Shown here: positions 2,907 to 6,708 of the stretch, piece by piece
How positions within the stretch are numbered: position 1 is the first letter of the stretch
How the letters are laid out: each line of letters starts with the position of its first letter
Source: an archaeon
GTDB taxonomy: Archaea > Hydrothermarchaeota > Hydrothermarchaeia > JALTZZ01 > JALUTC01
Reading direction: 5' to 3'
Length of the DNA: 8,926 nt
Assembly (NCBI GenBank): GCA_027051265.1
Contig: JALTZH010000224.1
Span: 1 to 8,926, forward strand
Position numbers and translations under genes: made by a program
Notes under the pieces: model-generated
Databases searched by the model: none
Told to the model about the DNA's origin: nothing
Seen by the model: the letters and a program-made list of their open reading frames with translations, nothing else

Positions 2907-4736
2907 ATGAAATTGCTTTTAATTCATGCGGAATATTTTAGGTATAAAGTTAAAGAAAGGACAAAAATTTCAGAAAAAATTCCTGAAGAAAAAAAAGAAA
3001 ATTCTTTTAAAAACGTTCTCGTTACATTTGTTGCTGTGGAAAGAGGTGATGAGCGAAATATAGATAAGATAACCGAAGTAGCGAAGGATAATATACTGGA
3101 AGTGTATAATAAAGTAAAAGCTTCAAACATCGTTCTTTATCCATATGCTCATCTATCTTCAAATCTAGCTACTCCTAGTGATGCATTAGCTGTCTTAAAA
3201 AAATTGGAAGAAAAGCTTAAATGTTTCAGAGCCCCCTTTGGTTGGTATAAAGAATTTGAAATAAAATGTTATGGTCATCCGTTATCAGAACTTTCAAGAG
3301 AGATTAAACTTGACGAAGAAACTCCAGTAGCTTTAAAGCAAGAGGAAAAAGTTAAATCGTATTGGTATATATTACAAGATGGAAATTTAATAAATCCAAA
3401 TGATTTCAATTTTGAGCAATATCCGGATTTAAAAATAATGTATGAATATGAAAGGAAAAAGATGAGAAAGGTTACTAAAGAACCTATACATGTAAAATTG
3501 ATGAGACAACTCGAGCTCGTTGATTACGAACCAAGTTCAGATCCAGGAAATTTGAGGTGGTATCCCAAAGGAGTTATCATAAAAAAATTGCTTGAAGAAC
3601 ATGTTACCAATATTGTAACGAGATATGGTGCAATGATCGTTGAAACCCCTATAATGTATAGTTTTGAAGATGAGAGACTAAAAAGCTATTTCAATAGATT
3701 TCCAGCAAGACAATATATATTAAAATCTGGAAAAAAAGAATACTTTTTAAGGTTTGCAGCATGTTTTGGACAATATCTTATTGCAAGCGATATGACAATA
3801 TCTTACAAAAATTTACCACTCAAAATCTATGAGTTAACACATTATTCTTTCAGAAGAGAACAACGAGGAGAAATTGTCGGATTGAAAAGGTTGAGAAGTT
3901 TTACAATGCCTGATATGCATACGTTTTGTAAAGATATGGAAGAAGCCAAAAGAGAATTCTTTGAACAATGTAAGCTTGCAATGAAATGGTTAGATGATGT
4001 GGAGTTAAGTTATGGAGTTATTTTAAGAGTTGTTAAAGATTTCTACTATGAGAATGAAGATTTCTTTAAAAAACTTTCCATGTTGATAAACAAACCAATC
4101 CTTGTTGAAATGTGGGACGAAAGATTTTTCTATTTTGTCACGAAAATAGAGTTTGCAATCGTTGATTCTCTACATAAATCTGCAACACTTTCAACGGTTC
4201 AAATAGATGTTGAAAACGCAAAACGTTTCAATATCCAGTACGTCAAAAAAGATGGTCAAAAAGATTATCCAATAATTCTTCACGCAAGCATATCAGGTGG
4301 TATTGATAGAAACCTCTATGCTCTACTAGAACAAGCATGGATGAGAAAGGATAAGAGAAAACCTATGCTACCAATATGGCTTTCACCAATACAGGTTAGA
4401 ATAATACCTATATCCAAGGAGGTTGAAGATTATTCTCGAAAGATTCTCGAAATCTTGGATAAAAATAACATAAGAGTTGATATAGATGATGAAGAAGGAA
4501 CACTCGAGAAAAAGATATTAAAGGCTGAGAGGGAATGGATTCCTTATATAATTGTCATAGGGAAAAAAGAGAAGACATCCAATAAAATAACTGTTAGAAT
4601 TAGAGAAACCGATGAAATAAAGGAAACGACAGTTGACGAATTGATTCATGAAATTAAAGAAAAATGTAAAGGAAAACCTTTCGTACCATTAAACTTACCA
4701 AAGGAATTATCGAAGAGACCAAAGTTTGTTGGATGA
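2907..4736 (+). CDS. thrS: Threonyl-tRNA synthetase, archaeal type with N-terminal editing domain
   Basis: Class II synthetase that charges tRNA-Thr and clears mischarged Ser-tRNA-Thr. Its 609 residues make it full length. The N-terminal domain (about 1-140) is the archaeal DTD-like editing domain: it begins MKLLLIHAEYF and contains YPYAHLSS at 78-85 and a GHPLSELSR segment at 123-131. The catalytic core (about 200-485) shows motif 2 around SFRREQRGE with R316, and motif 3 GGIDRNLYALLE with R468. The zinc ligands typical of ThrRS are in place: C286, H338 and H459. The anticodon-binding domain covers about 487-600. The start is fixed by the preceding in-frame stop of the DHH gene, 9 nt upstream. 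The stop overlaps the next ORF in an ATGA. A fused editing domain differs from the split ThrRS-1/ThrRS-2 arrangement of many Crenarchaeota. Confidence 0.97.
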   Translation: MKLLLIHAEYFRYKVKERTKISEKIPEEKKENSFKNVLVTFVAVERGDERNIDKITEVAKDNILEVYNKVKASNIVLYPYAHLSSNLATPSDALAVLKKLEEKLKCFRAPFGWYKEFEIKCYGHPLSELSREIKLDEETPVALKQEEKVKSYWYILQDGNLINPNDFNFEQYPDLKIMYEYERKKMRKVTKEPIHVKLMRQLELVDYEPSSDPGNLRWYPKGVIIKKLLEEHVTNIVTRYGAMIVETPIMYSFEDERLKSYFNRFPARQYILKSGKKEYFLRFAACFGQYLIASDMTISYKNLPLKIYELTHYSFRREQRGEIVGLKRLRSFTMPDMHTFCKDMEEAKREFFEQCKLAMKWLDDVELSYGVILRVVKDFYYENEDFFKKLSMLINKPILVEMWDERFFYFVTKIEFAIVDSLHKSATLSTVQIDVENAKRFNIQYVKKDGQKDYPIILHASISGGIDRNLYALLEQAWMRKDKRKPMLPIWLSPIQVRIIPISKEVEDYSRKILEILDKNNIRVDIDDEEGTLEKKILKAEREWIPYIIVIGKKEKTSNKITVRIRETDEIKETTVDELIHEIKEKCKGKPFVPLNLPKELSKRPKFVG

Positions 4737-5497
4737 AAATAAACATAAAGGGTCTCAGTATAATAATTTCAGTAATTTTGTTAATTTCTTTAGCCGTTAT
4801 TTTAATATTAATCACTCATATCTCATATAAATCTTTTATTAAAGAGGAAAAATCTCATCTTAAAACTCTTTATACAAAAGAAGTATATGAACAATACGCT
4901 TCGTTAACTATATTGAAAGCTGATCAGTTTGGGTTTAAAATTAAAAACGATGGTTATATATCACTAGTTGACTTAAAAGTATACGAAGATGGTAAAAGGT
5001 TGTTCTTAAATAAAACTGCTTGCAGAAAAATATGTACAAATTGTTCTGAGGATTTAACCGTATTAGAAGTTAATGCTACCGTAATATGTAATGTAAACCT
5101 AACTCCTGGAAATTTACTGGTTGCTATTGCAAGATATGCGGTTGATAAACGTAAGATTATCGGTATAATTGTTAGAATTAACCTTACGATTATACTAATT
5201 AACGTAACGTTAACAAAACCTGAAGAACCAATTATAATATATCTGACAGGATTTTCAATTGATACGAATAAACCAATCATAAATCTCATTTCTATCGAAA
5301 ACGTTTCGTTTTTGATATATAATCCTCTGTTAGAAAATTTATCCGAAATTAATATTTCACTTAAAGAAACGGTACCGTTATTTATATCGAACATTACATC
5401 TTTAAATGTTTCTACAAGATTACCTATAATCCTCTACCTTGAAGTGTTTAATGAAACTGTTTTTATTGACCTCAATGCAACCATTGAGTTTGAATAG
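4733..5497 (+). CDS. Unrecognised membrane-anchored surface protein, pilin-like N terminus, sequon-rich
   Basis: I do not recognise a family. The 254-residue product starts with a short basic stretch, MKINIKG, then one hydrophobic helix (about 8-28); the remainder has no second clear membrane segment. K6-G7-L8-S9 before the helix fits the class III signal pattern cut by archaeal prepilin peptidases, so it may be pilin/archaellin-like; a plain N-terminal anchor is the alternative. The outer part is rich in alternating hydrophobic residues, suggesting beta structure. It holds 13 N-x-S/T sequons: N93, N103, N114, N122, N150, N157, N190, N202, N207, N220, N225, N240 and N248, none with proline in the middle. 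Four cysteines (C97, C101, C104, C119) cluster in one loop. The ATG overlaps the thrS stop by 4 nt, so it is translationally coupled to a cytoplasmic synthetase, which is odd. It has no Shine-Dalgarno of its own. Confidence 0.75.
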   Translation: MKINIKGLSIIISVILLISLAVILILITHISYKSFIKEEKSHLKTLYTKEVYEQYASLTILKADQFGFKIKNDGYISLVDLKVYEDGKRLFLNKTACRKICTNCSEDLTVLEVNATVICNVNLTPGNLLVAIARYAVDKRKIIGIIVRINLTIILINVTLTKPEEPIIIYLTGFSIDTNKPIINLISIENVSFLIYNPLLENLSEINISLKETVPLFISNITSLNVSTRLPIILYLEVFNETVFIDLNATIEFE

Positions 5498-5631
5498 TAT
5501 ATAATGAGTTAAATATTACTATTTTCTTACTGTAAAAAATATTTTACTTGAAGAAATTATCTCAATTGGGTTATTCCTTCTTGTGATTCGTTGTGCTAAT
5601 TTCCATGCATTATTATTGTTAAAATTGATAT
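5498..5631. other. Intergenic spacer with weak terminator and promoter candidates
   Basis: This is the largest internal gap in the window. A TTAAATATT element at 5509-5517 could be a TATA box for the IPP isomerase gene with a leader near 90 nt. A T-rich tract just after it (5518-5528) could serve factor-independent archaeal termination of the thrS operon. GTAAAA at 5532-5537 and TTTTAC at 5542-5547 form a 6-bp inverted repeat with a 4-nt loop. None of these is strong in such AT-rich DNA, and no RNA gene was seen. Confidence 0.3.
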
Positions 5632-6708
5632 ATGGAAGACTTAAGTTTGAGAAAACTTGAACATATAAAGATATGTCTTGAAAAAAATGTTGAATCCGAA
5701 ATTTCAAACGGTTTCGATGATATAATATTAATTCATAGAGTTCCAAATATTGATTTTGAAGAAATAGATACAAGTATAGATTTCTTTGGAAAAAAGATTT
5801 CTGCACCTATAATAATATCACCCATAACTGGTGGTCATAAGTTTAGTGAGAAGATAAATAAAAACCTTGCACTTGCTGCAAAAGAATTAAACATACCAAT
5901 TGCTGTAGGTAGTCAAAGAATAGCACTCATAAATAAAGAATCCAGAAAAAGTTTTAAAATTATAAGAGAAGTATCTGAAAATCTATTTGTTATTGCAAAT
6001 ATTGGTATAGCACAACTCAAAGAGTATTCGATGGATCAAATTCAGGAGTTAATAGACATGATTGATGCCAATGCTTTATACATTCATGTTAATCCACTTC
6101 AAGAAGTTTTACAAAAAGAAGGTAATAAAAACTTTCAGGATTGTTTAGAAAAACTGGATGATATAAGGAAGTTGAACATACCAATAATAGTAAAAGAAGT
6201 GGGAACAGGATTTTGCAGAGAAGATGCAATGATATTTGAGAAAAAAAAGATAGATGCAATAGACGTTGCTGGTCTTGGTGGTACAAACTTTGCTATCGTT
6301 GAATATTATAGAAATAAGAAAGAAATATTCAGAGATTTTTTCAACTGGGGTATTAAAACAGCAATTTCTCTCATAGAATGTTTGGAATTTACGAATTTAA
6401 AAGTTATTGCAAGTGGTGGGATAAGAAATGGTGTAGAAGTTGCGAAGGCAATGGCGTTAGGCGCATATGCTACAGGTGTTGCATTACCTCTACTCAAACT
6501 TGCTATTCATAATCATATGGACGTGGTAAAGTATATAAATGGTATGATCGAACAGTTAAAGATAGCAATGTTTCTCACAAATTCTAAAAGAATTGATGAT
6601 CTTAAAAAAGTTGATGTTATCATAAAAGGTTTCGTTAAAGATTGGCTCGAACAGAGAAATATTGATATAAAAAAATATTCAAACAGAAGATTGAAGAGAA
6701 GTACTTAA
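5632..6708 (+). CDS. fni: Isopentenyl-diphosphate delta-isomerase, type 2 (FMN-dependent)
   Basis: Interconverts isopentenyl and dimethylallyl diphosphate for isoprenoid and archaeal membrane-lipid synthesis, using reduced FMN and Mg. The 358 residues form one TIM barrel of normal family length. Motifs in order: RKLEHI at 7-12 (substrate diphosphate binding), the ITGGHK region at 65-70 for FMN, VGSQR at 92-96, HVNPLQE at 152-158 with the active-site Q157 and metal-binding E158, KEVGTG at 188-193, GLGGTNF at 214-220, and the FMN phosphate loop SGGIRNG at 261-267. Overall it reads much like the Sulfolobus enzyme. An in-frame TGA at 5626-5628 fixes the start. No mevalonate-pathway gene is adjacent. 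Its stop overlaps that of the convergent minus-strand gene by 4 nt. Confidence 0.97.
   Translation: MEDLSLRKLEHIKICLEKNVESEISNGFDDIILIHRVPNIDFEEIDTSIDFFGKKISAPIIISPITGGHKFSEKINKNLALAAKELNIPIAVGSQRIALINKESRKSFKIIREVSENLFVIANIGIAQLKEYSMDQIQELIDMIDANALYIHVNPLQEVLQKEGNKNFQDCLEKLDDIRKLNIPIIVKEVGTGFCREDAMIFEKKKIDAIDVAGLGGTNFAIVEYYRNKKEIFRDFFNWGIKTAISLIECLEFTNLKVIASGGIRNGVEVAKAMALGAYATGVALPLLKLAIHNHMDVVKYINGMIEQLKIAMFLTNSKRIDDLKKVDVIIKGFVKDWLEQRNIDIKKYSNRRLKRST

Follow-up and report, generated by a model that had tools for sequence, protein, structure and literature searches.

A sequon-dense type IV pilin-like protein encoded directly behind thrS in a little-sampled archaeal phylum

Archaeal type IV pilins, such as UpsA/UpsB and AapA/AapB of the Sulfolobales, PilA1-6 of Haloferax and Epd of Methanococcus, have in common a prepilin cut site, an N-terminal hydrophobic helix and a beta-rich outer domain with N-x-S/T sites, and pilin genes in archaea commonly lie away from the pilus assembly genes, as do H. 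volcanii pilA1-6 (PMC4371748). The class III signal peptide of such proteins has a charged residue followed by Gly or Ala, with the cut site ahead of the hydrophobic domain (PMC4371748); UpsB, for example, has K-G-I-S at its prepilin site, and characterised pilins carry 0–7 sequons (Table 1, PMC4371748). Glycans have been resolved at the sequons of archaeal filaments, three on AapB (PMC11178815) and five per subunit in the threads of Sulfolobus acidocaldarius (Saci_0406; PMC9715654), and have been proposed to increase filament stability and to mediate contacts (PMC9715654, PMC11178815).

We analysed a stretch of 8,926 nucleotides (the window) from a 1.46 Mb draft genome in 257 contigs that is 95% complete. 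An ORF check and homologues supported a prepilin-like glycoprotein gene at 4733..5497 on the plus strand, exactly where the original prediction had placed it, encoding 254 amino acids. A motif scan identified its first seven residues as a class III (prepilin) leader (4733..4753, plus strand), with the predicted cut after Gly7 (MKINIKG|LSIIISVILLISLAVILILITH). The K6-G7|L8-S9 site and the long uncharged stretch that follows fit the class III motif, a combination seen in few other ORFs of the contigs sampled, in a layout comparable to that of UpsB. In a single-sequence AlphaFold2 model a helix spans residues 5–46, with pLDDT of 76–93 to residue 30 and about 47 thereafter, and we assign the hydrophobic helix of the mature protein to about residues 8–46 (4754..4870, plus strand). 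Beyond the helix pLDDT is under 50; the single-sequence models are too weak, and searching the PDB for similar folds returned meaningless matches. The next region, at about residues 47–142 (4871..5158, plus strand), is a putative pilin-like beta domain with the motif F-x-I-K-N-x-G-x-x-x-L-x-x-x-x-V-Y, four cysteines shared with a paralogue and 4 sequons; it is followed by a C-terminal extension of about residues 143–254 (5159..5494, plus strand), which holds 9 of the 13 sequons and is beta-rich by low-confidence prediction. The protein resembles the characterised pilins in cut-site layout, helix, a putatively beta-rich outer domain, N-x-S/T sites and gene position, and differs in its 13 sequons, its extra C-terminal region of around 110 residues and a diverged N-terminus in which the S-P-V-I consensus is absent after the predicted cut site. 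It resembles the Saci_0406 threads as a probable, heavily N-glycosylated component of a surface filament, but the threads depend on signal peptidase I and donor-strand assembly and have no class III signal peptide.

The original prediction recognised no family, and this held for scans of the single sequence: Pfam, NCBIfam and PHROGs gave nothing credible, and the protein falls below the TIGR02537 and Pilin_N (PF07790) models, a match to which is diagnostic if present but not strictly defining; evident pilins encoded by these genomes also score under the PF07790 cut-off. It did not hold for homology searches in related genomes, which place the protein in the archaeal type IV pilin superfamily, so that the 'minor pilin' offered originally as an alternative names the right family. 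A paralogue of 144 amino acids in the same genome (L009:125-559, minus strand, on contig C11) is 38% identical (E 1e-25) and ends where the extension starts. It shares four aligned cysteines and has 4 sequons, two of them (N94 and N123) aligned with N93 and N122; at its predicted cut site it reads R-A-I-N, a poorer fit to the class III motif. Another relative from this genome, on contig C125, is truncated at the contig end; it starts MKKGLSPVIATVLLLVIAVS and scores above the cut-off of the archaellin/pilin N-terminal model.

Among the 23 genomes that make up our sample of the phylum, all from one class, two further homologues tie the protein to canonical pilins. Searching with the single sequence (P0001) found one in genome G003 with E 1.6e-9, aligned over residues 6–142 and bearing the canonical N-terminus KGISPVIATLLLVVIAIS; a whole-genome search found the other in G005 with E 1e-7. 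Both pass TIGR02537, the archaellin/pilin N-terminal domain, with 29.1 and 28.1 bits against a cut-off of 20, and both belong to runs of four to five successive pilin-like genes adjoining an A24 prepilin peptidase. They align with 32% identity through the helix and beta domain, including the VYEDG and YA-D motifs, but are 169 amino acids long, have 1–2 sequons each and lack the cysteine cluster and the extension. The alignment of the four homologues has 20 invariant columns, K-N-x-G and V-Y-x-D among them, and a profile built from it gave pilin-like hits in 41 out of the 208 archaeal genera searched, a reach that stems in part from its two canonical members; the matches are short exported proteins with [KR][GA][IVL][ST]P starts. 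The best PDB match of the profile was the filament subunit 8fk7 (E 4e-5), which was also first for P0001 alone, there not significantly (E 0.22). Viral contigs held no relative. By these sequence relationships the protein is a striking, unusually sequon-dense case within a protein type already known, and not a new kind of system. The rows on G003:C120 and G005:C102, each a pilus locus of a little-sampled phylum, were noted in their own right, the former contig also carrying a T2SSE ATPase match. Separately, a canonical pilin (KGLSPVIAIVLLIVIVIGAVALFYSWY) is encoded in both same-genus genomes (L035:1492-1956 on contig C47 in the window's own genome, L032:1258-1722 on contig C91 in G001), with 2 and 4 sequons and differing gene surroundings, and is possibly the major pilin.

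We next turn to the sequons, defined as N-x-S/T with x not Pro. The protein has 20 Asn, 36 Ser plus Thr and 13 sequons, all after residue 90 (93, 103, 114, 122, 150, 157, 190, 202, 207, 220, 225, 240 and 248), which confirms the counts first made by hand. Chance had been put at about three sequons, and same-composition shuffles of the whole protein agreed, with 2.7 ± 1.5 (2.5 ± 1.4 when only residues 90–254 were shuffled); 13 or more were reached in 0 of 20,000. Ser or Thr follows Asn at a spacing of +2 in 13 cases, compared to 0–3 at +1 and at +3 to +8 and 1–4 at each mirrored Ser/Thr–Asn spacing. Because only the +2 spacing is enriched, the signal is one of sequons and not of an Asn/Ser/Thr-rich patch.

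A similar excess extends across exported proteins of the genome. In 67 contigs with 373 ORFs of at least 100 amino acids, split into exported and cytosolic by a simple hydropathy rule, exported proteins other than the 254-residue protein contained 117 sequons compared to 60.8 ± 6.6 after shuffling and 59 reversed S/T-x-N motifs, whereas ORFs without membrane segments showed no excess (326 sequons, 330 expected). This indicates that N-x-S/T selection characterises the exported proteome, which agrees with the presence of an STT3/AglB oligosaccharyltransferase homologue on contig C116 whose reading frame exits the contig end. The sequon excess beyond composition and the presence of this enzyme gene together fit an AglB pathway, and support the original view of an outward-facing, N-terminally anchored protein under real selection for N-x-S/T. 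At 5.1 per 100 amino acids the 254-residue protein has the highest sequon density of the 373 ORFs; next comes an exported protein of 1302 residues whose 54 sequons account by themselves for much of the exported excess. That protein (L099:15088-18996, minus strand, on contig C34; 27 sequons expected) resembles PQQ-like beta-propeller repeats by eye at its N-terminus and is a candidate major surface glycoprotein. On L096 (contig C31), exported proteins clustered at 58-648, 2091-2777 and 4815-6044 carry C-x-x-C-H type motifs, look by eye like multihaem cytochromes and are also sequon-rich. The 1–2 sequons of the class homologues imply that the heavy load is lineage-specific and not a conserved family trait. 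Orthologues lacking the sequons or the anchor had been named originally as evidence against a surface glycoprotein; these homologues lack the load but keep the anchor.

Genes for assembling and processing type IV pili are present in the same genome, with an A24 prepilin peptidase on contig C256 and T2SSE assembly ATPases and T2SSF platform proteins on C96, C113, C117 and C196; none adjoins the gene studied here. We consider it about 75% probable that this is an archaeal type IV pilin-like protein that is processed, glycosylated at many sequons and used as a minor or adhesive surface pilin. In the working that we propose, Sec/SRP would insert the protein in the membrane and the A24 peptidase would cleave after Gly7, leaving the exposed hydrophobic helix as a membrane anchor or packed in the core of a pilus that the PilB-type ATPase and the PilC/TadC-type platform assemble. 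STT3/AglB would N-glycosylate the outer beta domain and extension at many of the 13 sequons. The product would likely be a glycan-coated minor or adhesive pilin at the cell surface with a lineage-specific extension; we infer its filament assembly and glycosylation, and by analogy its glycans may serve the stability and contacts proposed for other filaments. The protein is a clear candidate surface glycoprotein for a little-sampled archaeal phylum, shows that a draft genome is enough to reveal the sequon excess of its exported proteins, and carries almost double the sequon number of the most heavily loaded characterised pilin tabulated in PMC4371748.

A membrane-anchored glycoprotein that is never cut or assembled, such as a sugar-coated adhesin or an envelope spacer using the pilin-derived helix only as an anchor, would look no different. 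We judge this improbable while giving it real weight: the canonical pilin N-terminus is matched weakly, the gene is away from the pilus loci and the extension makes the protein almost twice as large as the paralogue, but the K-G|L-S motif and its uncharged stretch are intact, homology to canonical pilins spans both helix and beta domain, and a position off the assembly loci is normal for pilins, as H. volcanii pilA1-6 illustrate (PMC4371748). It is very improbable that AT-rich codon bias or chance produced the sequons and that they are unglycosylated. AT-rich sequence does favour Asn, Ile, Lys and Thr, and the class homologues have few sequons; against this stand the composition-preserving shuffles, the enrichment at +2 only, an excess confined to exported proteins with none for the reversed motif, and the STT3 homologue.

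The gene's position prompts another reading, in which co-translation with ThrRS would tie supply of the surface protein to threonyl-tRNA. As originally claimed, the ATG at 4733 overlaps the TGA (4734-4736) of thrS (2907..4736, plus strand), which encodes an archaeal ThrRS with the archaeal editing domain, by 4 bases (ATGA); the thrS end is real, because its C-terminus SKRPKF matches that of an order-level relative (G002). Thr also ends many of the sequons. Yet 43 of 195 same-strand neighbour pairs in the sampled contigs of this genome have exactly the same overlap, as do the IF5A and NTPase genes in the window, and the paralogue gene overlaps one for a cytosolic GNAT protein instead. The survey of relatives suggested originally found no gene with the anchor and sequons behind thrS, within the flank covered, in any of the 17 further members of the class that gave a thrS match; the genes there, annotated by eye, were dCTP-deaminase-like, sensor-kinase-like, aminoacyl-tRNA-synthetase-like, MoaC-like and others. 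The same-genus draft G001 has no thrS. With such overlaps common and gene order not conserved among these class members, we rejected a functional coupling to ThrRS, which is scarcely credible, and a meaning for the translational coupling noted originally is unsupported. Elsewhere in the window, IF5A, THEP1-like NTPase, Pth2 and JAB-domain genes are tightly packed at 215-1904, overlapping or abutting.

A variant of the pilin reading makes the extension, with 9 sequons in about 110 residues, a dedicated glycan-carrying module that defines a pilin subclass. This is a doubtful proposal; if true, a subunit at the tip or shaft of the pilus would be a sugar brush deciding what the cell sticks to. Residues 143–254 had no homologue in the same genome or the relatives searched. 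We do not claim an origin by internal duplication of the beta domain, for which local segment alignments compared with shuffles gave p of only about 0.01–0.1, uncorrected for the pairs tried, and took a Pfam match to DHU1_N at residues 180–234 (E 0.007–0.026), a eukaryotic family, as chance since it lies below cut-off. A LEA_2-like domain, suggested by an N-P motif seen by eye, was likewise rejected because Pfam gave no match. A LEA_2 domain was recognised (E 3e-15) in another exported protein of the genome, encoded at L072:1-825 on the minus strand of contig C10.
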